Shown piece by piece: positions 20,738 through 56,434 of a stretch of DNA of 64,000 bases. The stretch is from Candidatus Nitrotoga sp. LAW (GTDB lineage: Bacteria; Pseudomonadota; Gammaproteobacteria; Burkholderiales; Gallionellaceae), in assembly GCA_003402315.1 (NCBI GenBank), contig QFXI01000021.1, positions 124,001 through 188,000 of the forward strand, in the 5' to 3' direction. Positions within the stretch are counted from its first letter, which is position 1. Each line of letters begins with the position of its first letter. Both the position numbers and the translations under genes were made by a program. A model generated the notes under the pieces. It was not told the origin of the DNA, ran no database searches, and was given only the letters and a program-made list of their open reading frames with translations.

Positions 20738-22286
20738 AGTGGCAAAGAATAATGGATTTTGCAAGCTTTCCTATACGATAATCTGGACAGCCACCATTAT
20801 CATATTGACATGCCCTGTCTATTCCGTTGCTGCTGACTGGAAAATCGTACCTAGGTTAAATTTAATAGAAACTTATACTGACAACGTCACTTTGGCTGTT
20901 CGAGGAAGTGAAAAAAGCGATTTCATCACCCAAATTAACCCTGGAATATCATTGATCGGAACCGGCGCACGCTTGAAAGTCAATGCCAACTATACAATGC
21001 AAAATCTGTTTTATGCCAATGAGAGCGATTCAAATAGAACCGTGCATCAGCTACGTGCAGGTGAAAATGCGGAGCTAATTAAAAATTTTCTTTTTCTGGA
21101 TAGTAACGCTAACATCAGTCAACAAAACATTTCTCTTCTTGGCCCACTAGCGACCACTAATGAAAACATCACGAACAATCGCACCACTATCAAAACTTAT
21201 AGCATTAGCCCCTATATACGCCACAATTTCTCCAATTTTGCCTCAACTCAAGCACGCTACACACACAATGCCGTCTACACGGGCGTAGGAGGGCTATCTA
21301 GCAGCCAATCGGATAGCATTCTGTTAAGCCTCACCAGCGGCACTGCTTTCCGCACGCTCGGCTGGGGCTTAAATTATAATAAACAAAGGATAGGCGGTTT
21401 AGGCACCTCTGGAGAAAATGAACGATATGCAGGTAATCTTCGTTACCGGATCTCATCAAAATTCAGCCTAACTGGAACAGGTGGATACCAAAAATTTAGC
21501 TATACATCAATAACCGGAAATTCGGCTGGTTCTTTCTGGACAACTGGTTTTGTCTGGACACCATCCGATAGAACTAATATCGCTGCCAATACTGGTAAAG
21601 CTTTCTTTGGTACTACCTACATGCTTAGAGCCAGCCATCGCACTCGCAGATCGGCTTGGAACCTAAATTACAACCAGAACATCACCACTACCCGCGACCA
21701 ATTTGTTATTCCTGCCACGGTTGATACGGCAAACTTCCTGGACCAGCTTTGGACATCCAACATTCCCGACCCCGTAATGCGCCAGCAAACAATAGATGCC
21801 TTCATTAGAGATAATGGACTTTCAGCTTCCATTTTTGACCCAATCAACGTCCTCACAAATCAATTTTTTCTGCAAAAACGCTTGCAGGCGAGTGTTGCGT
21901 TAAGTGGCGCTAGAAGCACACTCGTGTTTAGCATGTTCCATATGTTGCGTGAAGCACAAACACAAGGAGATGCGAATAGCGCTTTGTTTGGGGCAAACAA
22001 CTTTACGTTGAACAACGATACAAAACAAATTGGCGGCAATGCTCTTTGGAGCTGGAAAATTTCTCCACGAACTAATGCTAATATCGGCGCCATATACATT
22101 AAGTCCAACATACTCGCCACGGGCCAAGAAGACGAAACTAAGACTTTCAGGGTCGGCCTAACACGGCAGATACGGCCCAAACTTAATGGCGCAGTTAATT
22201 TTCGGCATACTGAGCGAACCTCTAACCAAATTGGCAGTGAATATCGCGAGAATGCAATCGTCGCATCTCTGTTAATGAGTTTCTAG
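20730..22286 (+). CDS. PEP-CTERM system outer-membrane beta-barrel protein
   Basis: The protein (518 residues) belongs to the uncharacterised family found in exosortase A loci between the tyrosine kinase and the ATPase. A signal peptide (TIIWTATIIILTCPVYSVAA) is followed by repeated amphipathic strands such as RLNLIETYTDNVTLAV and LNYNQNITTTRDQFVIP, ending in ENAIVASLLMSF, with a terminal Phe typical of outer-membrane barrels. The role is probably as the outer-membrane channel for the polymer, by analogy with other loci. The ATG at 20730 overlaps the kinase stop. An in-frame ATG at 20715 is also possible. Confidence 0.85.
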   Translation: MTKVAKNNGFCKLSYTIIWTATIIILTCPVYSVAADWKIVPRLNLIETYTDNVTLAVRGSEKSDFITQINPGISLIGTGARLKVNANYTMQNLFYANESDSNRTVHQLRAGENAELIKNFLFLDSNANISQQNISLLGPLATTNENITNNRTTIKTYSISPYIRHNFSNFASTQARYTHNAVYTGVGGLSSSQSDSILLSLTSGTAFRTLGWGLNYNKQRIGGLGTSGENERYAGNLRYRISSKFSLTGTGGYQKFSYTSITGNSAGSFWTTGFVWTPSDRTNIAANTGKAFFGTTYMLRASHRTRRSAWNLNYNQNITTTRDQFVIPATVDTANFLDQLWTSNIPDPVMRQQTIDAFIRDNGLSASIFDPINVLTNQFFLQKRLQASVALSGARSTLVFSMFHMLREAQTQGDANSALFGANNFTLNNDTKQIGGNALWSWKISPRTNANIGAIYIKSNILATGQEDETKTFRVGLTRQIRPKLNGAVNFRHTERTSNQIGSEYRENAIVASLLMSF

Positions 22287-22303
22287 CTGGAGCAACCACA
22301 TAA

Positions 22304-23311
22304 ATGTATGAATCTTACTACGGATTAAGTGCTAAACCGTTCCAATTACATCCTGATCCACAGTTCATTTTTGGCAGCAAAGGTCATAAGCGCGCCATGG
22401 CCTACCTGGAATATGGCCTGTCTCAAGGAGAGGGCTTCATAGTTATCACCGGCGACGTTGGCGCAGGCAAAACCACCTTAGTACGCAGCCTTTTTTGTAA
22501 ACTTGAATCGGACAAAATTCAAGCAGCGCAAATCGTCAACACCAACCTTGATGCAGATGACACATTAAGAATGGTAGTCGCTGCGTTCGGGCTCCCGTAT
22601 GAAAATGACTCCAAAGCTTCCTTACTGACCAGACTTGAGCAGTTTCTTCGGCAGTGTGACCAAAAAGGGAAACGCGCACTACTCATAGTGGATGAAGCAC
22701 AAAATCTTTCACTCCAAGCAGTTGAAGAATTAAGGATGCTGTCAAATTTTCAAACTGCTGACAAATCGTTGCTGCAAATTTTTTTGCTAGGACAACCTGA
22801 ATTCAGAAAAACCCTTCTTAGTCATGACATGCAACAATTGCAGCAGAGGGTAATCGCAACCTACCACTTAGGACCATTAGACGCGATAGAAACAAGAGAA
22901 TACATTGAACATCGATTACACACCGTTGGCTGGAATGGAGACCCTTCCTTAAGCGAAGACGCTTTCTTTAAAATTTACAATTTTACTGGGGGCGTTCCAC
23001 GCAAAATAAATACACTTTGTGACCGCCTATTTTTAATGGGTTACCTCGAAGAACGCCACACTTTCGGAAGCTCTGATCTGGATGAAGTTTTAGGAGATAT
23101 TCAACAAGAACTTGCTCTTCCCATATCGGATACTGCAACACAGAATTCAACCCACATCCCGCAAATCGCGCAGGAAGAGGGGGCTCATGGGAGCTTAGAA
23201 AATATGGACGAAAGACTTTTCAAGATGGAAAACTCGGTTATTTCTGTACTGGATCTGCTTAAGCGAATTCTTTCCCGCTCCAATTCAAGCATCAATAACC
23301 TTACGAAGTAA
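22304..23311 (+). CDS. XrtA-associated ATPase (ExeA/GspA-like AAA)
   Basis: This cytosolic ATPase has 335 residues. It begins MYESYYGLSAKPFQLHPDPQ, the start shared by ExeA-type AAA proteins. Walker A is ITGDVGAGKTTLVRSL, Walker B is ALLIVDEAQNLS, and the sensor region is FLLGQPEFRKTL. The C-terminal 70 residues are low in conservation and end in a helix. The family occurs in nearly all exosortase A loci next to the beta-barrel protein and may energise secretion or assembly. The start follows GGAGCAACCACATAA, 17 bases after the previous stop, so it is in the same operon. Confidence 0.9.
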   Translation: MYESYYGLSAKPFQLHPDPQFIFGSKGHKRAMAYLEYGLSQGEGFIVITGDVGAGKTTLVRSLFCKLESDKIQAAQIVNTNLDADDTLRMVVAAFGLPYENDSKASLLTRLEQFLRQCDQKGKRALLIVDEAQNLSLQAVEELRMLSNFQTADKSLLQIFLLGQPEFRKTLLSHDMQQLQQRVIATYHLGPLDAIETREYIEHRLHTVGWNGDPSLSEDAFFKIYNFTGGVPRKINTLCDRLFLMGYLEERHTFGSSDLDEVLGDIQQELALPISDTATQNSTHIPQIAQEEGAHGSLENMDERLFKMENSVISVLDLLKRILSRSNSSINNLTK

Positions 23312-23951
23312 ACAACTATATTAATATTATGATTACTGAAAAAAAGCAAACTCACCTTAATGTGCAATTTTTGTAAGATTGTTTACGATACAAATTGCCA
23401 GTGAGATTGAATAGATTAATCAACTCGCACGAGAGTAGATAGAACAGAGCCAACGTGAATTGAGTTCAAAGCAGTGCCGGGCATTACAGAAAAAACGATA
23501 CCGAGTAAACGATACCGAGTATATGTCAGCGTCCTGCGCTTCACGCAGGAAGATTGGAATAGCACGTAAAATTAATACAACAAGCCATGCGTCCCAAACA
23601 AATGATGGATGCTTGTCCTGTAGAAAGCTTGCCGATCAGTCATCAAACCATCTCTCAGCGCATTTAGCCGACAAGTATCATGTAGCGATTTATGGCAGAA
23701 GCACTTGCGATACCAGAAACCACACTTAAGTATGTAAGTTGGAAAGGGTGAAAAAATGCAACCAAGAACCAGGGCAACCTTGACGAATTTTCAGATTTAG
23801 TGAGTCACAAGGCTTGCATAGTCGTCAAGACTAACTAACAGTGCACGATAATCTGCTGCGGCCTCACCAAAGTAAATGTAATAACGGATTGTTAGGGGCA
23901 TTTTCACGAGCCATTTTAAAAAATTCATATCATCAATAACAATTAATACCA
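23312..23951. other. Intergenic region, 640 bases, no gene recognised
   Basis: The gap breaks the otherwise tight exopolysaccharide operon, so a new promoter for the WecB operon is likely here. It contains a perfect 14-base tandem repeat (23493-23520) and a hairpin with seven-base arms TCCTGCG/CGCAGGA at 23532-23550. The hairpin has no T run. The open frame at 23460-23729 has an unusual composition rich in Ser, Arg and Cys, and no family resemblance, so it is left out as a gene. Confidence 0.5.
23493..23520. repeat. Perfect tandem repeat, 2 x 14 bases
   Basis: AAACGATACCGAGT is present twice without a spacer, in the gap between the ATPase and wecB. It is followed 11 bases later by a seven-base-arm hairpin. 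The function is unknown. It may be slippage or a direct-repeat binding site. Confidence 0.85.
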
Positions 23952-25109
23952 ATGATTAAACTACCCTCCCCTGCACCTTATAGCATTCTATGTGTCGTAG
24001 GCGCGCGCCCTAATTTCATGAAAATGGCTCCTATCATGGCAGCCTTTGCCGCTGTTGGAGCAGAACTCGATGTATCCCTGGTCCACACCGGCCAACATTA
24101 TGATGTCACCATGAACCATCAATATTTCGAAGCGCTCGGCATACCGCAGCCCGATATTAATTTGGAGGTTGGCTCGGGAAGCCATACAGCACAAACCGCC
24201 AATGTGATGCTCCGTTTCGAATCAGTTCTTCACACAAAACGTCCTTCCGCAATGCTGGTAGTTGGTGATGTAAATTCCACACTAGCCTGCGCGCTTGTGG
24301 CAGTAAAAAATGGGGTTCCCGTAATTCACGTTGAAGCCGGTCTACGCAGTTTCGACCGCGCTATGCCAGAAGAAATCAACCGGGTTTTGACCGATCAAAT
24401 ATCTGAACTCCTATTCATCACTGAGCGCAGTGGCCACGAAAACCTGTTGCGCGAGGGAATAGCAGAACATCGTATTCGATTTGTCGGCAATGTCATGATC
24501 GACACCTTGCATCACAACCTGAAGAAAGCGATCCCGGTATCTAAAATCCTGCAGAATGCCGGCAGAAAAGAGTTTCTGATTGGCCATGATGGATATGCCA
24601 TCCTCACCGCACACCGCCCTTCCAATGTGGACGATCCCGATATCCTGCGCTCATTGCTTGAAACAATCCTCAAGATTAGTGCCAAATTGCCAATTATTTT
24701 TCCGATACATCCACGCACTCGTGACATGATCCAAAAATTTGGATTGGGCAAAATGCTGGATGTTCCTACCGTATTGCAACTGCCCCCAATGGGTTATCTG
24801 GAAATGCTGGGACTCATGAAGGATGCGCGAGTTGTATTGACCGACTCAGGCGGTATCCAGGAAGAAACTACGGCTCTTGGCGTACCCTGCATTACGCTCA
24901 GAAACAATACGGAAAGACCGATCACAGTGGATGAGGGAACCAACACGATCGCCGGACTGGATTCAGCAAAAATACTAGCGATATTTGACGAAATCATGCT
25001 TACCGGCGGAAAAGCGGGAAGAATTCCTGAACTCTGGGATGGGCAAGCCTCAACACGCATTGCAGCAGAAATTCTCGGTTGGCTGAAAAATGGTTTACAA
25101 AGCAAATAA
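23952..25109 (+). CDS. wecB: UDP-N-acetylglucosamine 2-epimerase (non-hydrolysing)
   Basis: This cytosolic enzyme converts UDP-GlcNAc to UDP-ManNAc for the exopolysaccharide. The 385-residue protein shows the family signatures: GARPNFMKMAPIMAAF, VHTGQHYDVTMN, VIHVEAGLRSFDRAMPEEIN, ILTAHRPSNVD and VVLTDSGGIQEETTALGVP. This length and order match WecB/MnaA. It opens a run of genes whose ends overlap or nearly touch (23952 to 31088). The following deacetylase ORF begins inside its end, though its likely start is after the stop. Confidence 0.92.
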   Translation: MIKLPSPAPYSILCVVGARPNFMKMAPIMAAFAAVGAELDVSLVHTGQHYDVTMNHQYFEALGIPQPDINLEVGSGSHTAQTANVMLRFESVLHTKRPSAMLVVGDVNSTLACALVAVKNGVPVIHVEAGLRSFDRAMPEEINRVLTDQISELLFITERSGHENLLREGIAEHRIRFVGNVMIDTLHHNLKKAIPVSKILQNAGRKEFLIGHDGYAILTAHRPSNVDDPDILRSLLETILKISAKLPIIFPIHPRTRDMIQKFGLGKMLDVPTVLQLPPMGYLEMLGLMKDARVVLTDSGGIQEETTALGVPCITLRNNTERPITVDEGTNTIAGLDSAKILAIFDEIMLTGGKAGRIPELWDGQASTRIAAEILGWLKNGLQSK

Positions 25110-27062: not shown

Positions 27063-28352
27063 ATGGATCATTTGCTTTATCTTACCCACCGCATCCCCTA
27101 CCCACCCAACAAGGGTGACAAAATACGTTCATACCATTTATTAAAATATTTAGCGCAACACTACCATGTTCATCTCGGCACTTTTATCGATGATCCAGAC
27201 GATTGGCAATACATAGATACCGTAAAGCAATTGTGCGGAGACACCCATTTTGCATCTTTAAATCCCCGCACGGCGCGTCTGCGAAGTTTGGGCGCGCTCA
27301 TGATGAATCATCCTTTAACTATTGATTATTATCGAAATAACGATTTACAGGAGTGGGTAAAAAAAGTAATAAAAACACAGGCAATTAAACGCGTTCTAAT
27401 ATTTTCTTCCGCCATGGCACAATATGTAACAGACATCCAACAAGCGCGTTGCATCATCGATTTCGTCGACATAGACTCCGACAAATGGCGTCAATACGCA
27501 AAAAGAAAACCATGGCCGATGCGTTGGCTATATCAACGCGAAGCTCGCTTGCTACTCCGCTACGAACGGCAAATGGCGCACACATATAATGCATCGCTGT
27601 TCGTTTCGGAAGCTGAGGCCAATCTTTTTAAACAGTTGGCACCGGAGAGTGCCGCAAAAATTGGATTCTTCAATAATGGTGTGGATAGTGATTATTTTTC
27701 GCCTAGCCGAAAATATCCTGATCCATATCATACAAACATAACGGCCATTGTGTTTACCGGTGCCATGGACTATTGGCCGAATGTGGACGCCGTGCGCTGG
27801 TTCGCTCAGGAAATTTTTCCCGCTGTACTAGCTAAGCATCCCAATATACGCTTTTATATCGTAGGATCTCGCCCAACCGCCGCAGTGCAGGAACTAACCC
27901 AGCTACCCGGAATCGTGGTAACAGGCGCAGTAGCGGATGTCAGGCCCTATCTCGCCCATGCCCAACTAGCAGTGGCACCCTTACGCATCGCCAGAGGCCT
28001 ACAAAACAAAGTCCTGGAAGCCATGTCCATGGCTAAGACTGTTATTGCATCTCCCCAAGCAGCAGAAGGCATTCTGGCGACATCAGGTAAAGAGCTGCAT
28101 ATTGCCAGCGACAGCCAAGAATTTAGCCGCATTATTATATCGATACTCGCCAATAAAGCCGAAGAACATATTGGCGAGACCGCGCGCGCCCGGATTCTGG
28201 AGGATTACAATTGGGAACGCAGCCTTATGCATGTCAAAGCATTGCTTACTGACACTCCAACAACTGCATCTGAATTTTGCAAGCCAGACAAAAGTACTTG
28301 GGCAGTGCCAGAAATACCACGCTTGACCACTTACAAGGGAAAGCAACAATGA
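27063..28352 (+). CDS. GT4 sugar transferase, PEP-CTERM/EpsH1 type 1
   Basis: This GT-B glycosyltransferase (429 residues) begins MDHLLYLTHRIPYPPNKGDKIRSYHLLKYL, the diagnostic opening of the first exosortase-associated sugar transferase family. The C-terminal donor-binding half has AIVFTGAMDYWPNVDAVRWF, IRFYIVGSRPTAAVQEL and the VAPLRIARGLQNKVLEAM loop. The start at 27063 follows GGGATAAGGCCA. The frame is open upstream within the FemAB gene, but that part has no domain. The stop overlaps the exosortase start (ATGA). The sugar donor is unknown. Confidence 0.9.
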   Translation: MDHLLYLTHRIPYPPNKGDKIRSYHLLKYLAQHYHVHLGTFIDDPDDWQYIDTVKQLCGDTHFASLNPRTARLRSLGALMMNHPLTIDYYRNNDLQEWVKKVIKTQAIKRVLIFSSAMAQYVTDIQQARCIIDFVDIDSDKWRQYAKRKPWPMRWLYQREARLLLRYERQMAHTYNASLFVSEAEANLFKQLAPESAAKIGFFNNGVDSDYFSPSRKYPDPYHTNITAIVFTGAMDYWPNVDAVRWFAQEIFPAVLAKHPNIRFYIVGSRPTAAVQELTQLPGIVVTGAVADVRPYLAHAQLAVAPLRIARGLQNKVLEAMSMAKTVIASPQAAEGILATSGKELHIASDSQEFSRIIISILANKAEEHIGETARARILEDYNWERSLMHVKALLTDTPTTASEFCKPDKSTWAVPEIPRLTTYKGKQQ

Positions 28353-29950
28353 CTGGCACAGCACCCCAAGTATTAACGACACCCAGCATTATCGATAGCC
28401 AAACCGGGCAGCCAGTATTGCAATGGCGCTTTATGGCTACCCTCACGCTTGCGGTTATTGTCACAATTCTCGCCATTTACCAGCAAACCGTGTTATCCAC
28501 CGTCGCTATCTGGCTGCGATCCGAGACTTTTACCCACGGTTTTTTTATTTTTCCGATTAGTGCCTATCTCATATGGATAAAGCGCAGATCGCTTGCCGAG
28601 ATAGCCCCATGCCCGGATTATCGCGGCTTGTTGGCCATGGCAGGGCTAGGCCTTGGCTGGCTGCTTGCTGATGCCGGGAGTGCGCAGGTTGTCGCTCAGC
28701 TGTGTTTGGTAGCAATGATCCCGGTGACGGTCTGGACTATACTGGGGCTGCGGGTGGCCCGCGCGATTACTTTCCCCCTCGGATTTCTGTTTTTTGCCGT
28801 TCCTTTCGGGGAATTTCTGATCCCCCCGCTGATGGATTTCACTGCCGATTTTGTAGTGACCGCACTGCAAATAACAGGCATTCCGGTTTACCGCGAAGGA
28901 ACATTTTTCACCATACCCAGTGGCCAATGGTCCGTCGTGGAAGGTTGTAGCGGTTTACGCTACCTGATCGCATCTTTCACTCTGGGCACCTTGTATGGCT
29001 ACCTCACCTATCGTAGCAATAAACGCAGGCTCATTTTTGCAGCACTGTCATTGATCGTCCCCATTTTTGCAAATGGGATGCGCGCTTATATGATCGTGAT
29101 GATCGCCCACTTAAGCAATATGCAATTGGCATTGGGAGTTGATCATTACATCTACGGTTGGGTCTTTTTCGGAATCGTTATGACGTTGCTATTCTGGATT
29201 GGCGCTTTTTGGCGGGAAGATCAATCAGATCAACAACAGCAAGAAAACAGGATTGCGGCTAATACGGCTCTCGGAACAATAACGGGCCGAGGCTTTGCCA
29301 TGGCGGGTGTTATCACCATTCTGGTTGCAGCATTGTGGCCTGCCTACGCTGCTTATTTGGACAACCGCCCAATCAAAACCGATGGGCTAGTGATAAAACT
29401 ACCTGAATCAATTCAAGGCTGGAATTTACAAGCTACGCCATTTACGGAATGGCAGCCACACTACGTTGGCACCCATGCACAAACCATACACACCTACCGT
29501 AAGGGAGATAAAACCGTCAGCGTTTACCTCGGTTATTATCGGACTCAGCGCCAAGATGCGGAATTAATCAATTCCCAAAACTATATGATCCAGCAAAAAC
29601 ATCCGGTATGGAACAATGTGGGCGAAAGACAGCGCACAATTTCTCTCCATGGCAAGAATGAAACGATCCAACAAACATTATTGCGTGCCCCCAATAACCG
29701 ATTATTAATCTGGAGTTGGAATAGTTTAAGAGGTACCTATACTACCAACCCGTATCTAGCGAAGTTGCTTTTGGCAAAGGCCAAATTATTGTGGCAGCGT
29801 GACGATGGAGCAGTGATCATTATTACTGCCCCCTATGAAGGCACGCCGGAATCAGCGGCATCGTCACTGCAATCTTTTGCCAACGATATGCTGCCGGCAA
29901 TCGATGCCAGTCTTAATAAAGTAGCAGAGCGCGAAACACATGCAAACTAA
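28349..29950 (+). CDS. xrtA: Exosortase A fused to EpsI domain
   Basis: This integral membrane cysteine protease-transpeptidase sorts PEP-CTERM proteins. The N-terminal 300 residues have about eight hydrophobic segments and the exosortase catalytic triad: Cys in VVEGCSGLRYLIAS, Arg in FANGMRAYMIVM and His in LGVDHYIYGWVFFG. The C-terminal 200 residues are the periplasmic EpsI domain (LPESIQGWNL, VSVYLGYYRTQRQDAELI, RLLIWSWNSLRG). Fusion with EpsI is the normal form for exosortase A. The ATG overlaps the previous stop, and the stop overlaps the next start. A target protein is encoded at 48729-49229. Confidence 0.95.
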   Translation: MTGTAPQVLTTPSIIDSQTGQPVLQWRFMATLTLAVIVTILAIYQQTVLSTVAIWLRSETFTHGFFIFPISAYLIWIKRRSLAEIAPCPDYRGLLAMAGLGLGWLLADAGSAQVVAQLCLVAMIPVTVWTILGLRVARAITFPLGFLFFAVPFGEFLIPPLMDFTADFVVTALQITGIPVYREGTFFTIPSGQWSVVEGCSGLRYLIASFTLGTLYGYLTYRSNKRRLIFAALSLIVPIFANGMRAYMIVMIAHLSNMQLALGVDHYIYGWVFFGIVMTLLFWIGAFWREDQSDQQQQENRIAANTALGTITGRGFAMAGVITILVAALWPAYAAYLDNRPIKTDGLVIKLPESIQGWNLQATPFTEWQPHYVGTHAQTIHTYRKGDKTVSVYLGYYRTQRQDAELINSQNYMIQQKHPVWNNVGERQRTISLHGKNETIQQTLLRAPNNRLLIWSWNSLRGTYTTNPYLAKLLLAKAKLLWQRDDGAVIIITAPYEGTPESAASSLQSFANDMLPAIDASLNKVAERETHAN

Positions 29951-44908: not shown

Positions 44909-45589
44909 ATGTTAATTAGCTTCAAAAAGCAATTTATTTATACAAAAACAATGAAGACTGCCGGTACATCGGTGGAATCTTATTTCGAAAAATACTGCAT
45001 GCCTGATGACAAATGGGAATTTGCTCATGCGAGAGAACAGCATGTTAGTGAATATGGAATCGTTGGATACCGCGGCATAAACCCGGAAGGTAAAGACTGG
45101 TTCAACCACATGTCAGCCGAAGCAATCAGGACAAACATAGGAAATTCCATATGGGAAAACTATTTTAAGTTTTGTGTCATACGCAACCCTTTTGACAAGG
45201 TGATCTCAGGCTTTCATTTCCTGGAGTTATCAGATAGCGATACAAACCAAAAAAGCTATCGCTTGGAAAATCACAGCCTAATCGAAAGATTCAGAAAGTG
45301 GATAGCTTCAGGAGGTGCAGAACGCGTTGTTGATAGAGGGACATATATGATAGATGGCAAGGTCTGCATCGACTATTTTGTGAGGTACGAAGAGCTTGAA
45401 TCCGGCTTGAATCATATATGCCAGCAATTAGATATTCCCTTTGAACTTAACAAATTACCCCGACTAAAGATAAGCGCCAGAGATCGTGATTTGAATATCG
45501 CTTCTTATTATGACCAATCGAGCATCGACGTGGTAATGAAGTTATTCGAATTTGAATTAGATTATTTTGGTTACCTGGCTCCGAAATAA
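44909..45589 (+). CDS. Sulfotransferase family 2 protein
   Basis: This predicted PAPS-dependent sulfotransferase has 226 residues. The 5'-phosphosulfate loop is FIYTKTMKTAGTSVESYF and the 3'-phosphate motif is FCVIRNPFDKVISGFHF, in the right order and spacing for the PF03567-like family. There is no signal peptide, so it acts in the cytosol, probably on a sugar or lipid-linked glycan. It has two decayed partial copies at 53297 and 54785. Lower GC content than its neighbours suggests transfer. Confidence 0.82.
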   Translation: MLISFKKQFIYTKTMKTAGTSVESYFEKYCMPDDKWEFAHAREQHVSEYGIVGYRGINPEGKDWFNHMSAEAIRTNIGNSIWENYFKFCVIRNPFDKVISGFHFLELSDSDTNQKSYRLENHSLIERFRKWIASGGAERVVDRGTYMIDGKVCIDYFVRYEELESGLNHICQQLDIPFELNKLPRLKISARDRDLNIASYYDQSSIDVVMKLFEFELDYFGYLAPK

Positions 45590-46051
45590 CAATGATCATT
45601 TTTATGGGTTCCGTGACTTTGCAATTTGCGGGGTCCCATTGCATTGCCTGACCAGCGCTCGCTTGAATACCTTGATAGCAAAAAGATACGCCACTTTACA
45701 GGTTATTCAGGTAAGACTACGTAGTTAAGGCTTCAGGATGTCGGTTATTTTTACACATTCATTTGAACTTATGCTTCTAATATTTATGAGCTCAACATTT
45801 TATAAATTAAGCCGTTGTAGATACTAACGTACTTGTTTTTAACATACGTTTGGCATGGTTTATGCTTATTCTTTAAATTAAAAGCAGGCAGCAAACATTT
45901 TGCTCTGCTTAATCTGAGATCATGGGATTTCAAAGAAAAATGTTAGATATTTGGCACTATTACCAGCGTATACTTCCATCTGAATTTGCAGAATCTGGAT
46001 GCCTTAAAATACCGAACAAGCTCAATTTAACCAACAACCTAGGAGATTAAC
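45590..46051. other. Intergenic region with sigma-54 promoter and long leader
   Basis: Nothing coding was recognised. It carries the sigma-54 site at 45850-45867. The transcript start is expected near 45877, giving a leader of roughly 175 bases before the TTG at 46052. Upstream activator sites for the enhancer-binding protein would be expected between about 45650 and 45800. Confidence 0.55.
45850..45867 (+). promoter_or_regulatory. Sigma-54 promoter of the beta-helix genes
   Basis: TTGGCATGGTTTATGCTT has GG at 45852-45853 and GC at 45864-45865, spaced by exactly ten bases as sigma-54 RNA polymerase requires. It matches TGGCACG and TTGC at nine of eleven key positions. It is nearly identical in form to the site before the PEP-CTERM gene (49307-49324). 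Confidence 0.78.
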
Positions 46052-46963
46052 TTGTTTAATAAGTCCTCACCCGTATATTTGTTTACTATTTTATGTGCCT
46101 TGATAATTACCCCTGCACAGGCTGGCCAGCGGGCCTTTGTCGCTTCTTACGGGAATGATGCCAATAGCTGCATTCCCCTCTCCCCATGCCGCTCGTTTGC
46201 CAAGGCGGTAACCGTGGTCGATCCCAACGGTGAAGTTTTGGCGCTCGATTCCGCCGGCTATGGTATCGTCACGCTCACCCAGCCGATCTCCCTGACGGCA
46301 GCCCCGGGTATCTATGCCGGCATTACCGTCTTTCCAGGTGAAAGCGGAGTGACGATTGCCGCAAGCGTGGATGTAGTACTACGTGGACTGACCATTAATA
46401 GCCAGGGCGGTAATAACGGGATTCTGATGAGCGGCAGCAGCAGTCTTTCGATTGAAAATTGTGTCATTTCTAATTTTTCAGGTGTTGGCCAGCGTGGCGT
46501 TTTCGTCGACTCGGCAGCATCGGTGCGGATGGTTGACACTCTAGTTCGCGACAATGACACAGGCATTCAGCTTCAGGGGGGAGCAATCACCGACATATCG
46601 GGCTCGAATTTTCTCGGAAATAATACTGCCATCCTCGCAACAAGCACGTCCAGTCCGTTCACGAGTGTCACCATCAGCGATACTATCGTGACTGCAGGAG
46701 GTACTGGCATTGAAGCGAGTTCAAGCGGCACTGGAAGCGCCCAGATAAACATGATTCGTTCATCAGTCACAAATAATCTAAAAGGCATTGCATCATCCGC
46801 CTCTGGCGGAACTGCCCCGGTCACTTTTAGCGATAGCATGGTAACAGGAAACGTGATTGGATATTTTAAGGGCACCGGTGGAACGCTGACGTCGCTGCAG
46901 AATAACACCATAACGGATAACGGCGGCAATACTGGCCCGCTTACTCCGCTATTACTCCAGTAA
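46052..46963 (+). CDS. Secreted right-handed beta-helix protein, copy 1
   Basis: The 303-residue protein has a signal peptide ending AQAGQRAF (cleavage after AQA). A Cys pair (SCIPLSPC) and a long parallel beta-helix follow, with repeating strands such as VVLRGLTINSQGGNNGI, SIENCVISNFSG and MVDTLVRDNDTGIQL. The fold is typical of pectate-lyase-like or surface proteins, but no catalytic motif is visible and the substrate is unknown. The start is TTG, supported by AGGAG seven bases upstream. It has no PEP-CTERM tail. A sigma-54 promoter lies at 45850. Confidence 0.82.
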   Translation: MFNKSSPVYLFTILCALIITPAQAGQRAFVASYGNDANSCIPLSPCRSFAKAVTVVDPNGEVLALDSAGYGIVTLTQPISLTAAPGIYAGITVFPGESGVTIAASVDVVLRGLTINSQGGNNGILMSGSSSLSIENCVISNFSGVGQRGVFVDSAASVRMVDTLVRDNDTGIQLQGGAITDISGSNFLGNNTAILATSTSSPFTSVTISDTIVTAGGTGIEASSSGTGSAQINMIRSSVTNNLKGIASSASGGTAPVTFSDSMVTGNVIGYFKGTGGTLTSLQNNTITDNGGNTGPLTPLLLQ

Positions 46964-47032
46964 AAACCAGCCTAACCGGGCGTATCCAAGGTTCCAGCAC
47001 AATCCCGCGACCTTAAACAACCAGGAGATCAG

Positions 47033-47989
47033 ATGTTTAAATTCCCAGTCGTATATTTGATTGCTGTTCTGTGCACCATTTTAGTAAACACTGCGCAGGC
47101 CGGCCAGCGGGCCTTTGTCGCTTCTAACGGGAATGATGCCAATAGCTGCATTCCCCTCTCCCCATGCCGCTCGTTTGCCAAGGCGGTAACCGTGGTCGAT
47201 CCCAACGGCGAAGTCGTAGTACTCGATTCCGCCGGCTATGGTTCTGTCACGCTCACCCAGTCGATCTCCCTGACGGCAGCCCCAGGTGTCTATGCCGGCA
47301 TTACAGTCTTTCCAGGTACAAACGGAGTGACGATTGCCACTCCCGGCGTGAGTGTGGTGCTGCGCGGCCTGACTATCAATAGCCAGGACGGTGATGCCGG
47401 GATTTTAATGACTGCTGGCGCCAATGGCGCCAAGCTTTCAATCGAGAATTGTGTCATTTCTAATTTTTCGATTATTACTAGCAGTGTTAACCAATACGGT
47501 GTTTTAATCCAAGCAGCAGCAACGGTGCGAATGGTTAACACCCTTATTCGCGACAATGATATAGGTATTCAACTTCAAGCAGGTGCTACGGCCGACATCT
47601 CTAAATCGAAGTTTTTTGGTAATTCCACTTATGGCATCGTTGCGTACAATTACATAAACGGCACGACCACGACCGCCGCTGTCAGCGATACTATCGTGTC
47701 ACAAGGTGGCGGCGTCGGCATTTTTGCGATTGTGGACTCAGCCTCCTCCGCCATCGCTAGGGCAGAGATAGTCCGTTCGGTAGTTTCAAATTACAACGAA
47801 GGCATTCGCACTGAAAGCCAGAATGGAAGCGCTTCGGTTAGTATTCGCAAAAGTATGGTGACGGGAAGCAGCAATTACGGGCTTGGACAGTTCGGTATTG
47901 GTGCAACGATGACATCTTACGGAAATAATACCCTGTCGAATAACTCTAGCAACCTTCTCGGCATATTAACTACCGCATCTCCCCTATGA
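47033..47989 (+). CDS. Secreted right-handed beta-helix protein, copy 2
   Basis: This is the tandem paralogue of the upstream gene (318 residues), 69 bases downstream with AGGAG before its ATG. The signal peptide and first about 80 mature residues are nearly identical to copy 1 at DNA level (over 90 percent by eye), while the rest has diverged and shows longer helix turns (NGAKLSIENCVISNFSII, TADISKSKFFGNSTYGIVAY). This pattern suggests recent gene conversion of the 5' end, or a duplicated start joined to a variable repeat region. It probably shares the sigma-54 promoter. Confidence 0.82.
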   Translation: MFKFPVVYLIAVLCTILVNTAQAGQRAFVASNGNDANSCIPLSPCRSFAKAVTVVDPNGEVVVLDSAGYGSVTLTQSISLTAAPGVYAGITVFPGTNGVTIATPGVSVVLRGLTINSQDGDAGILMTAGANGAKLSIENCVISNFSIITSSVNQYGVLIQAAATVRMVNTLIRDNDIGIQLQAGATADISKSKFFGNSTYGIVAYNYINGTTTTAAVSDTIVSQGGGVGIFAIVDSASSAIARAEIVRSVVSNYNEGIRTESQNGSASVSIRKSMVTGSSNYGLGQFGIGATMTSYGNNTLSNNSSNLLGILTTASPL

Positions 47990-48728
47990 ACCGGCTGATC
48001 CCGGGTCACCTTCAAGATGCCTCTGGAAAAGCAAGAGGGTTATTGAGGTAAGCCCTCAAATAAAGACTATAAACCATGAACCATCCAAAGCGGTTACAGC
48101 TTTTTTATCCAGCTGTATCCGCTCACCCTCTTGGCTCCATGCTCTATTCGTTTACTATACTTTTGAAATAAATACTCTGCGGTAGTTATAGCCCATCTCG
48201 CTTAAATTCGGGCATTCTTTCATCCCTGAACCTTTATTTCTTAGTTGAAATACAGATTCACTCTCACCAAAAAATAAAACAAACCTTTATGAGCCCCGGC
48301 AAAACAGCGGGTTAAATTATTGTAAAATATAAGAAACTATCACAATTTCGCCGCCAATCGTTCCATGAGACATCGATTATGACCATCATTTTGAAAAAAC
48401 ACATCTGTCAAATATCCTTCTATCCAACTTTTCCATGCCCACACAATAACTAAGTTCATTTTTGCAAAAGCAAAACCCAGCTTCTCGCCTTCTGCGCAAC
48501 GTTGGACTTTAGCCAAATAACCTTAATTAAGTTCATCATCTTCATGACGAATAAAAGGCTAATTACGTACCACTATCCTGCTTTCAGAAGATCGGATGAC
48601 ATCGCCCCAAATGCATTCACTAAAAAATCAAGTCCGAAATAGTCAATTGCGATGCCGTGAACAAATACGTGCATCGCCTCCATGCCGGACTTATATTCCT
48701 ATACACCTCTACCATAAAAAACTGTTAA
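47990..48728. other. Convergent intergenic region, no gene recognised
   Basis: The stretch lies between the second beta-helix gene (plus) and the PEP-CTERM gene (minus). Both genes end here, so it should hold their terminators. It has the hairpin at 48089-48123. The open frame at 48596-48829 overlaps the PEP-CTERM gene antisense and is a shadow. Confidence 0.5.
48089..48123. terminator. Hairpin, possible terminator of the beta-helix genes
   Basis: AGCGGTTACAGCT at 48089-48101 pairs with AGCTGTATCCGCT at 48111-48123 except for one T-T mismatch, with a nine-base loop. There is no T run directly after it, so a rho-independent terminator is only possible, not shown. Confidence 0.45.
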
Positions 48729-49229
48729 TCAACTGTGGCGACGGCGAGCAAATCCAAGTCCCGCAAATCCAAGTCCCAGCAGCGCCAAAGTTGCAGGTTC
48801 TGGGATGGCTGCTACCGATTGAATATTGACAGCTTGGTCAATCCTACCAATGCTTTCGAACCCAGTGGCCGGCAAGATCGGGGCAGTGAAGTTCGAACCA
48901 ACATCGACAATAGGTCCAACAAAGTTGTAGTCCGTTGGGTATGAGGGGAACAAGATGTGCACCGAGCTGACTGTTCCAGAGGTGTATTCCTCGCTAACAA
49001 AGATATTTTTGACGGGACTTAAATTTCCATTGATCTTATTTTTGGGAACATTGGTTACCCCTGTTTTACTTGGGACTGCTAAACTGGCCAAAGCTGAACC
49101 CAACAATGGCGCAGCCGATACCGAGAATGAACCGCAAAATAAATTGATCACTACCAATGCTAGTGTCGGCAACGAATTAAGTGAGCTACCGTTACGCACA
49201 CGTCCAGTATAACTGGGTGGGATTTTCAT
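48729..49229 (-). CDS. Small PEP-CTERM sorting-domain protein
   Basis: This is a substrate for the exosortase at 28349. It has 166 residues, with a signal-like hydrophobic stretch (LALVVINLFCGSFSVSAAP) after a basic start. The canonical C-terminal PEP-CTERM domain follows: the PEP motif in VAAIPEPATLALLGLGFA, the hydrophobic stretch and the Arg cluster RRRHS. The ATG at 49227-49229 follows AAGGA at good spacing; the longer frame to 49268 has no ribosome site. The mature region is about 120 residues with no recognised domain. It probably ends up outside the cell in the exopolysaccharide. A sigma-54 promoter lies 78 bases upstream. Confidence 0.88.
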   Translation of the reverse strand: MKIPPSYTGRVRNGSSLNSLPTLALVVINLFCGSFSVSAAPLLGSALASLAVPSKTGVTNVPKNKINGNLSPVKNIFVSEEYTSGTVSSVHILFPSYPTDYNFVGPIVDVGSNFTAPILPATGFESIGRIDQAVNIQSVAAIPEPATLALLGLGFAGLGFARRRHS

Positions 49230-49306
49230 GCTGAGTTCCTTAGTGGAAGTTAAATAAAAAACAATCAAGCTTAATATAACAATCGAGAATATCTATAGTG
49301 TATATC

Positions 49307-49324
49307 CAGCATTATTCATGCCAA
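49307..49324 (-). promoter_or_regulatory. Sigma-54 promoter of the PEP-CTERM gene
   Basis: On the minus strand the sequence is TTGGCATGAATAATGCTG, with GG and GC ten bases apart. It matches the consensus at TGGCAxG and xTGC. The site starts about 78 bases before the ATG. PEP-CTERM genes in other betaproteobacteria are known to depend on RpoN and the PrsK/PrsR pair, which supports the call. Confidence 0.82.
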
Positions 49325-50061
49325 AAAATTTATGTAATACTAAACAATTAGTTATAAATAAATTTATGACAACATAATAAGCCATGTAAAAATTTTCGAC
49401 ATAATTTAAAATCAGCCAGCAATGTCCTTAAGAATTCAGTTTAAGCAAACAGCTTTTTTGCTTCTTTCAACCGGCATTGACTTCCACACTCTGACGCACT
49501 ATAGCTTCAAGGGCTTGCTGTTCTTCACGCTCCAACGTTGCGGCACTTTTTAGCTTACTATTGGCAAGTTCATCTATGCCATGGATTTTCGCGCCATAAC
49601 ATTGCCCAAAAAAAATCATAAAACACGCCCATCCTATTACAAAATGGAACAAAAAATATCAATTCAAACCATTTATCCCTCTTGGAAACAGTAGCATAGG
49701 AGTCTTTTCGTTTAGTCATGGTTTAACTCAGAGTCCGCGCGATTTACATTTCATCATAAAAAATTCTCCCCTCCACCTTATGGGAGGTAAAATAACAGAA
49801 GGTTTCATAAAGCATTGCTCCATCACAGCTAACTAAAGCTTAATCTAGCCGAAGAGTGAATAAGCATGAGCGCAGTAAAACAAAAAATACACAAGGGAAA
49901 TTCGTGCGATTGATTCCAGCAATTCTATGCGATGCTGCAGTATCTCTTTTGATTCCGTTCTCTTTTGAAGTATCACCCAAACCATTCATACGTTTAAATG
50001 CTGAGCAAAGTCTTTATGTCAAAGAGCGTTAAATTTAAAGATCATTATAGCCGGGTTTGCA
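49325..50061. other. Intergenic region before the second polysaccharide locus
   Basis: AT-rich sequence between the PEP-CTERM promoter (minus) and the first GT2 gene (plus). Enhancer sites for the sigma-54 promoter are expected in its left part. A possible 50-residue ORF on the minus strand (49467 to about 49619, ending EAIVRQSVEVNAG) has AGGATGG upstream of its ATG but no known relatives. It is not called as a gene. Confidence 0.45.
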
Positions 50062-54997: not shown

Positions 54998-55000
54998 GTG

Positions 55001-56434
55001 ATGATTAGTAATCACGGCGATCACCTCGTCTTCCTCCTCTCCATGCCCCGCTCAGGCTCAACACTGTTAAGTCTGATGCTGGGCAGCCATCCGGAAATTT
55101 GTTGCCCACCAGAGCCTTGGATAGTTCTCGCACTTGCAGAATACTTAAGGTTAGGAGATGTCAGGAGTACTCCCTATGGCCGGGAATGGGCTGAGATTGC
55201 TGCAATAGAATTCGTACTGAAACCGGAGAGAATACAAAGGGGCGCACTCGGTAAAGCGCTTCGCATGATCGCTGAAACGTCCCGCTTGGACGCCATCACA
55301 GCGGCAAGACAAATTTTGCAGACAGTCTACCAGTTGCATCTTGACGTATCAGGAAGGAGCATTTTTGTCGATAAGACCCCTCGCTATTACGCTGTGCTGG
55401 GAATGATCGACAAAATTTTCCCCCAGGCAAAAAAGATCGTATTGTTGCGTAACCCGCTGGATGTTTTTGCATCGTACAAAGCCACTTGGGAAATTCCTCG
55501 AACCATTTTCACCCCTGAGGGTGTTTCTGTTCACGCAAGGGATTTTTGCGAAGGCTTGTTTACACTTGCCGACTACATAGCCACCTCCAGGAATGACCTC
55601 CTGGTTCTACGTTATGAAGATTTGGCAAATGACCCCGAGAGCGTGCTCCGGTCTGCTTGCGAGTTTGCTGATATCAACTTTTCACCCACGATGCTGGCTT
55701 ATTACGAGAATGCAGCACTGATAGAAGAGTACAAGCGATCTCCGGTCGGAGATCCAGTTTCATCCTGTCGCCCCAAACCGACGAATAATCGGACGGTAAA
55801 CGCCTGGGAGATGCGCCTTGATGAGGCTGATATTCAAGTCTTGATCGACGTCTTAGGCATCAAAATTTTTGAGCGTCTCGGCTATGGTAATACGGTAGCC
55901 AGGTTGCGCGATATAAGTGTGAACATCCCAACTGAAGAACAAGCATTCGGACGCCGAAACTTGCTAATGCGATCCTTGATTGACCATGTACATGAGCAGC
56001 CCTTCTCGATTTGGAACAATTTTGTTTCACCGTTGAAGGGGTGTCAGGCTGACCGGGCGGCAAGACTGGAGGTGATCCAACAGCAGCAGGCTGTGCTGCA
56101 AGGGGTACGCCAGAGTTTGGAGATTTCAGAAGCAGACCGCGCTGCGCGGTTGGAGGCGATTCACCGGCAACAGCAGGAACTGGAACAGCTGCGGCATAGT
56201 CTGGTGGTGTCGGAAGCAGACCGAGCGGCGCGATTGGACGCAATTCACCGGCAACAGCAGGAACTGGACAGACTGCGGCAGAATCTGGAGGTGTCGGAAG
56301 CAGACCGAGCAGCGCGATTGGACGCAATTCACCGGCAACAGAAAGAGCTGGATCAATTGCACTCTACTTACGGTTTCCTGTGCTATCGCTTCAGTCAGCT
56401 TAAAAAATGGATTTATGAATGTAGAAAAAGGTAA
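55001..56434 (+). CDS. Sulfotransferase with C-terminal 28-residue repeats
   Basis: The first about 320 residues form a PAPS-dependent sulfotransferase of the PF13469 type. The 5' loop is FLLSMPRSGSTLLSLML, the 3' motif is IVLLRNPLDVFASYKATW, and VLRYEDLANDPESVL is present. The last 130 residues hold four repeats of 28 residues starting EADRAARL, predicted as a coiled coil. Tandem GTG (54998) and ATG (55001) starts occur; the ATG is chosen. The tail may anchor it to a partner, such as a glycosyltransferase, but that is inference. The methyltransferase gene follows 158 bases later. Confidence 0.85.
   Translation: MISNHGDHLVFLLSMPRSGSTLLSLMLGSHPEICCPPEPWIVLALAEYLRLGDVRSTPYGREWAEIAAIEFVLKPERIQRGALGKALRMIAETSRLDAITAARQILQTVYQLHLDVSGRSIFVDKTPRYYAVLGMIDKIFPQAKKIVLLRNPLDVFASYKATWEIPRTIFTPEGVSVHARDFCEGLFTLADYIATSRNDLLVLRYEDLANDPESVLRSACEFADINFSPTMLAYYENAALIEEYKRSPVGDPVSSCRPKPTNNRTVNAWEMRLDEADIQVLIDVLGIKIFERLGYGNTVARLRDISVNIPTEEQAFGRRNLLMRSLIDHVHEQPFSIWNNFVSPLKGCQADRAARLEVIQQQQAVLQGVRQSLEISEADRAARLEAIHRQQQELEQLRHSLVVSEADRAARLDAIHRQQQELDRLRQNLEVSEADRAARLDAIHRQQKELDQLHSTYGFLCYRFSQLKKWIYECRKR
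56045..56380 (+). repeat. Four tandem 84-base coding repeats (28 residues each)
   Basis: Units start at 56045, 56129, 56213 and 56297. Each encodes xADRAARLxxIxxQQ and a Gln/Leu-rich tail. Units two to four are nearly identical (EADRAARL[ED]AIHRQQ). The unit sequence is in phase with the coiled-coil heptads (28 = 4 x 7), so unit gain or loss changes tail length without breaking the frame or the coil. Confidence 0.92.

Follow-up and report, generated by a model that had tools for sequence, protein, structure and literature searches.

We analysed a stretch of 64,000 nucleotides from the genome of Candidatus Nitrotoga sp. LAW (positions 124001-188000 of contig C21; hereafter the window), which carries two tandem genes encoding beta-helix proteins, a PEP-CTERM gene on the opposite strand, and an exopolysaccharide (EPS) locus associated with exosortase A (XrtA). 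The two beta-helix proteins matched PF13229 with 48 and 35.9 bits (cut-off 25.9), and their N-termini, judged by eye from the translations, look like Sec signal peptides. As a first-pass annotation of the sequence had stated, neither protein carries a PEP-CTERM tail: PF07589 and TIGR02595 were unmatched, and the C-termini read ...TGPLTPLLLQ and ...LTTASPL. The same annotation had placed the pair in the PEP-CTERM regulon, a proposal that is strongly supported by the shared PrsR-type box, the conservation in the genus and the link to XrtA described below.

A putative sigma-54 promoter with the GG-N10-GC layout precedes the first beta-helix gene and another precedes the PEP-CTERM gene (Table 1), exactly at the positions and with the layout first reported for them, and these are the only matches in the window to TTGGCAYG-N4-WTGC without mismatch. 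When up to two mismatches were allowed, 39 matches were seen against 31.2 +/- 5.9 expected from shuffles, indicating no enrichment. The remaining window matches to TGGCA-N7-TGC (3305, 11513, 30829, 30934 and 60781) all lie within listed open reading frames (ORFs), so that the earlier statement that the EPS genes have no such site before them is borne out within the window. In the whole host genome (2.81 Mb, 33 contigs), the exact pattern occurred 12 times, compared to twice in the reversed control, and five of the 12 matches have a TTTACA box upstream. Of the seven unboxed matches, five overlap ORFs and two are intergenic (C16:94455 and C28:163856); on these grounds the sigma-54 pattern alone was rejected as sufficient evidence. 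The sigma-54 half by itself is thus weak evidence, and it is the upstream box that makes the promoter reading convincing.

Both window promoters have such a box, and these two are the only ones in the window even when one mismatch, or the form TGTC[GA]-N6-TTTACA, is allowed. The TTTACA end of the box definition is taken from the consulted text of Haft et al. (2006; PMC1569441), whereas the TGTCG part was derived from the sites found in the present analysis. Both boxes fit the "motif 1" which, in that text, is proposed to bind PrsR.

Table 1. Features of the window, with one promoter from elsewhere in the host genome in the last row
Feature	Position	Strand	Remarks
Putative sigma-54 -24/-12 promoter of the beta-helix pair, TTGGCATGGTTTATGCTT	45850-45867	+	GG-N10-GC, TGGCA / TGC context
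PrsR-type box (motif 1), TGTCGGTTATTTTTACA	45739-45755	+	exact TGTCG-N6-TTTACA, 94 bp before TTGG of the beta-helix promoter
Beta-helix gene 1, 303 aa	46052-46963	+	PF13229 E 1.4e-12; probable Sec signal peptide; TTG start aligned with ATG in most relatives
Beta-helix gene 2, 318 aa	47033-47989	+	tandem paralogue of gene 1, 61-63% identical
Putative sigma-54 promoter of the PEP-CTERM gene, TTGGCATGAATAATGCTG	49307-49324	-	GG-N10-GC, TGGCA / TGC context
PrsR-type box, TGTCGAAAATTTTTACA	49385-49401	-	exact TGTCG-N6-TTTACA, 60 bp before TTGG of the PEP-CTERM promoter
PEP-CTERM gene, 166 aa	48729-49229	-	PF07589 over cut-off; TIGR02595 25.1 bits (cut-off 16); ATG at 49229, alternative upstream TTG at 49268
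IHF-like core (speculative), TAAGCCGTTG	45808-45817	+	YAAN4TTR between box and beta-helix promoter
IHF-like core (speculative), TAACTAATTG	49345-49354	-	spacer of PEP-CTERM promoter
XrtA-associated EPS locus	17362-39397	+	TIGR03027, TIGR03007, TIGR03018, TIGR03016, TIGR03015, TIGR03087, TIGR03109, TIGR03088, TIGR03108, TIGR03097 over cut-off
Exosortase A	28277-29950		inside the XrtA-associated EPS locus
SGLAVSG-family host promoter (L020)	G000:C26:69995-70110		orthologues L192, L195, L150, L186, L177

In the host genome, the exact box occurred ten times, and a high-scoring sigma-54 site follows it in five cases, at distances to TTGG of 60, 62, 94, 94 and 95 bp. The genes behind these five promoters are all three PEP-CTERM genes of the host (counted over the PF07589 cut-off), the beta-helix pair, and one gene of a further tail-less family, which we call the SGLAVSG family. 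The other five exact boxes lack a good sigma-54 site; four of them overlap long ORFs, and the fifth (C9:72438-72454, L014) is flanked by a protease gene and an insertion sequence. This last box, which stands between the end of the subtilase-like gene and an insertion sequence adjoining a PEP-CTERM gene (gene labels by eye), is possibly a promoter remnant. Boxes with up to one mismatch numbered 64, against 56 in the reversed control. All 54 one-mismatch boxes in the host were inspected and none was found outside coding DNA with a strong sigma-54 site; they were rejected as regulon members, as L033 alone has a downstream site above 4/8 (6/8), and that inside ORFs. A fourth, sub-cut-off PEP-CTERM match (C23:22880, 17.9 bits) had no box in its locus (L046).

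The host encodes the regulators that such promoters would need. RpoN was identified at C23:91532-91999 (PF04552, E 9.7e-61), and PrsK, PrsR and PrsT matched TIGR02916, TIGR02915 and TIGR02917 over cut-off in one locus (L214), where the genes for PrsT, a TIGR03013 glycosyltransferase, PrsK and PrsR form a cluster. Taken together, the sequence evidence makes it highly likely that the pair is transcribed from an RpoN promoter activated by PrsK/PrsR, the switch common to the host's three PEP-CTERM genes. The two beta-helix genes probably form one transcription unit. Because the pair has the two-part switch of the PEP-CTERM genes, it very probably belongs to the same surface-matrix gene set, despite the missing sorting tail.

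The promoter type was then surveyed in 19 Candidatus Nitrotoga genomes, 12 XrtA-positive and seven XrtA-negative, one of the latter (G070) having a sub-cut-off exosortase match (136.6 bits). A relaxed pattern (TTTACA, 50-111 bp, TGGCA-N7-TGC) gave 127 matches (63 + 64), compared to 19 (12 + 7) in the reversed controls. Of the 127, 126 were scored for TGTCG (the match in G058:C73 was left out), with a threshold of four of the five letters that was chosen after the list was seen. At this threshold, box and sigma-54 site occurred together 63 times in the 12 XrtA-positive genomes (104 matches scored) and not once in the seven XrtA-negative ones (22 of 23 scored). Removal of one coding match (G073, L133) left 62 promoters, among which orthologues are not independent. 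According to a regular-expression test, 46 of these promoters precede PEP-CTERM-like genes, seven the beta-helix pair, six the SGLAVSG family and three other genes; the expression itself gave 47 PEP-CTERM-like genes, one of which, a 435-aa gene of G008 lacking a hydrophobic tail, was reassigned by eye to the last class. The SGLAVSG family (ESRR..SGLAVSG..., about 216-265 aa) has no PEP-CTERM tail and carries the same box and sigma-54 site in six genomes; for its 264-aa host member, neither Pfam (at E 1) nor NCBIfam (at E 1e-10) gave a match.

Two further host sites touch on this set. The intergenic site at C16:94455-94470 (L004) aligns with a boxed promoter that stands before a 282-aa PEP-CTERM gene in G008 and G033 (L127, L144) but has no box in the host, so that a promoter of the boxed type has apparently decayed there; no PEP-CTERM match was found on host contig C16. 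A conserved sigma-54-like site, GTGGCATGATTAATGCTT, lies at C26:87031-87138 (L189; L214:3046, minus strand), and a similar one was seen in G033 (L196). It lies at the 5' end of a gene for an exosortase-associated acyltransferase (TIGR03694), and in the listed ORF it overlaps the opening codons. Its region has no standard box and shows a palindrome, TGTCG-N8-CGACA, after its TTTACA; through a variant box, the acyltransferase gene possibly also belongs to the regulon.

The beta-helix pair itself was found, at E 1e-10, in 11 of the 19 genus genomes and in none of 131 other genomes of the family. It occurs in 11 of the 12 genomes with XrtA over cut-off and in none of the seven others (Fisher p 1.6e-4, ignoring relatedness), and wherever both lie on one contig (10/10 genomes) the pair is 16.5-27.3 kb from XrtA. 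Box and sigma-54 site precede the first gene of the pair in nine of the 11 genomes. Seven of these nine promoters have an exact TTTACA and at least four letters of TGTCG, and the boxes of G047 and G061 have one and two mismatches, respectively. In G026, the pair is directly preceded on the same strand by a PEP-CTERM gene that has a box and a sigma-54 site of its own, and one promoter could therefore serve all three genes.

Several observations weigh against common control of the pair and the PEP-CTERM genes. G073 has XrtA and PrsR and lacks the pair, and in G076, a genome 85% complete, PrsR is absent over cut-off. In G055 the aligned site reads TTTGCGTAGTTTATACTT, GG and GC are gone and the box is unrecognisable; control of the pair by this switch is thus not universal. 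Homologues outside the genus lack the promoter, box and sigma-54 site being found at none of the nine copies that two further genomes of the order (G230, G298) contain, nor at L084, for which 237 bp of upstream sequence were covered; they were likewise not found at the distant genus homologues L071-L075 (30-37% identical), which include a third host copy at C3:28758. Among the homologues covered, the control is thus peculiar to the pair of this genus. The beta-helix leader, at 186-291 nt, is longer than those of the PEP-CTERM genes (mostly 34-135 nt), and the 94 bp between box and sigma-54 site slightly exceed the published range of 32-92, whose motif borders may be drawn differently, whereas the 60 bp at the PEP-CTERM promoter fall within it. 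Rfam gave no match for an RNA element between 44500 and 50000 of the window. A small ORF in the 187-nt leader (42 codons, by eye) was rejected, since G047 has, by eye, no ATG and an early stop there.

The spacing between box and promoter was discontinuous across the genus. Counted from TTTACA to TGGCA, which gives one more than counting to TTGG, the 62 promoters in 12 genomes are spaced at 51-54, 61-65, 84-86 and 93-98 bp, with none at 66-83; 25 of them fall in the 93-98 group. Grouped into 21 sequence clusters by single linkage, which put 25 promoters belonging to different PEP-CTERM genes in a single cluster, the spacings were phased at about 10.5-11 bp (R 0.75-0.77), and none of 5000 uniform simulations was as strong, a statistic that shared ancestry between clusters could inflate. 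Such phasing would fit an activator and a polymerase that need a set face of the DNA helix. The motif YAA-N4-TTR is the core of the consensus sequence of integration host factor (IHF). It was present in the spacers of 14 of the 21 clusters, compared to 5.96 +/- 2.02 in dinucleotide shuffles, and a candidate core lies in each of the two window spacers (Table 1). In the part of PMC7962754 consulted, IHF is described as commonly bound between the enhancer and an RpoN promoter. In addition, TGTAAAT, which contains the reverse complement of TTTACA, was observed in the spacer of several relatives' beta-helix promoters, and the window reads TGTAGAT in the region 45808-45820; the TGTAAAT could represent another activator half-site in inverted orientation or a piece of the IHF-like core.

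From these features the following order of events may be proposed. Activated PrsR would bind upstream of the promoter, at the TGTCG-N6-TTTACA box some 60 or 94 bp away, the DNA between the two would bend, perhaps through IHF, and PrsR would then open the RpoN polymerase complex at GG-N10-GC. The beta-helix products would be exported via their Sec signal peptides to the periplasm or the surface, and would act there, associated with the matrix, together with the XrtA-type polysaccharide. XrtA would not sort them, because the PEP-CTERM tail is missing.

What the exported proteins do is less firmly indicated. An AlphaFold2 model (11 sequences; mean predicted local distance difference test (pLDDT) score 73.5) showed a confident right-handed beta-helix core from about residue 100, whereas the first 70-90 residues were unconfident. 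The nearest solved folds include polysaccharide-acting beta-helices, namely the tailspike TSP2 (E 8.8e-4), the AlgE4 epimerase, the pectate lyase Pel9A and AlgG, and likewise NosD, pertactin and adhesin-like beta-helices. Template modelling (TM) scores by query length were at most 0.54 among the matches listed, and these matches to the model appear to fit the fold class while leaving the function unfixed. A structural or EPS-binding role is about an even call. The strongest competitor, which we regard as possible but the less probable of the two, accepts the promoter and takes the products to be enzymes of the periplasm or the exterior, such as a lyase, epimerase or hydrolase, which would trim or modify the XrtA-type polysaccharide and would not be structural matrix proteins. 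The polysaccharide-acting proteins among the nearest folds and the location of the pair in an EPS locus speak for enzymes; against them stand the low TM-scores, a fold that alone predicts little, the NosD, pertactin and adhesin-like matches, the lack of any solved relative by sequence at E 0.1, and an 11-sequence alignment with no invariant His or Lys, though with invariant Asp and Arg. Related beta-helix domains were also seen in ORFs of 450-486 aa in G055 (L059, C1:529328-530176) and G064 (L069, C1:1329271-1330113), whose N-terminal part looks, by eye, like YD-repeat plus fibronectin-type sequence.

A second alternative, which we consider improbable, is that the promoter is shared by descent only, a PEP-CTERM promoter region having been copied or captured beside the pair without importance for its function. 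A PEP-CTERM gene with this type of promoter does lie beside the pair in the window, and directly upstream of it in G026, and the site was lost in G055. However, the seven scored beta-helix promoters form a cluster of their own with 94-97 bp between TTTACA and TGGCA, compared to 61 at the neighbouring PEP-CTERM promoter, and box and GG/GC are kept in nine of 11 genomes while much of the intervening DNA differs. Finally, chance matches in AT-rich intergenic DNA, to which the unenriched two-mismatch sigma-54 pattern and the boxes with up to one mismatch, about as frequent as their reversed control, might point, are a negligible prospect, since exact box and sigma-54 site stand at a fitting distance in five host places, each preceding a gene, the relaxed pattern far exceeds its reversed controls across the genus, and orthologous conservation across nine genomes contradicts it.

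Control of the pair by PrsK/PrsR and RpoN would extend a known, little-tested regulon to secreted-looking tail-less proteins, and the regulon may therefore be usable to find matrix components that searches for PEP-CTERM have missed. It also points to two unnamed protein families of a nitrite oxidiser as likely participants in EPS biology, and the stepped spacing offers a direct way to test whether PrsR activation depends on helical phasing. More broadly, and with rather less than even confidence, we suggest that PrsK/PrsR/RpoN in Candidatus Nitrotoga runs a matrix-building rather than a PEP-CTERM programme. Its conserved tail-less members, at least the beta-helix pair and the SGLAVSG family, would cooperate with the XrtA-type polysaccharide and need no processing by exosortase, and the box distance would be locked to whole helical turns, with main settings of about 63 and 95 bp that differ by three turns and perhaps encode two activation strengths.

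Two observations lie outside this argument. Sulfotransferase-family genes (window 44909-45589 and 54998-56434) lie near the beta-helix and PEP-CTERM genes, which suggests sulfated surface glycans. At about 21500-24500 of host contig C3 (L026), repeats of CTAAGCTGCCTGTGCGGCAGCAAAC with differing spacers have the appearance of a CRISPR array, which we take to resemble type I-F.

The consulted literature on exosortase in Nitrotoga gave no account of this regulon, the matching passage concerning Nitrosospira. The regulon type as such is already known; the sources as consulted contain neither the tail-less members named here nor the stepped spacing. The general premise of the first-pass annotation, that PEP-CTERM genes of betaproteobacteria need RpoN and PrsK/PrsR, was worded slightly too strongly: the RpoN dependence stands for one betaproteobacterial gene, in the portion of PMC9850573 consulted. 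That gene, pepA of Aquincola tertiaricarbonis, is an RpoN-dependent PEP-CTERM gene with a mapped start and a -24/-12 promoter; it resembles the Nitrotoga promoters in its TGGCAC / CTGCTT elements and a predicted upstream enhancer, and differs in being a PEP-CTERM gene, whereas the Nitrotoga target is a tail-less beta-helix pair. DVUA0057 of Desulfovibrio vulgaris belongs to a distant lineage, and the consulted portion of PMC3333781 mentions no beta-helix target. The closest parallel is the PEP-CTERM region of Haft et al. (2006, PMC1569441), in whose consulted sections 99 of 167 proteobacterial PEP-CTERM genes are preceded by a 17-nt motif that ends in TTTACA and has a sigma-54 motif downstream of it, with a mean spacing of 62.8 (standard deviation 10.6, maximum 92). 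As in Nitrotoga, the sigma-54 motif there has the GG/GC form, and the arrangement tracks PrsK, PrsR and PrsT and stands mostly before PEP-CTERM genes. Unlike the few sites before other genes in those sections, which are unnamed, the Nitrotoga sites identify two conserved tail-less families, and in place of a single range of spacings they fall into four groups.

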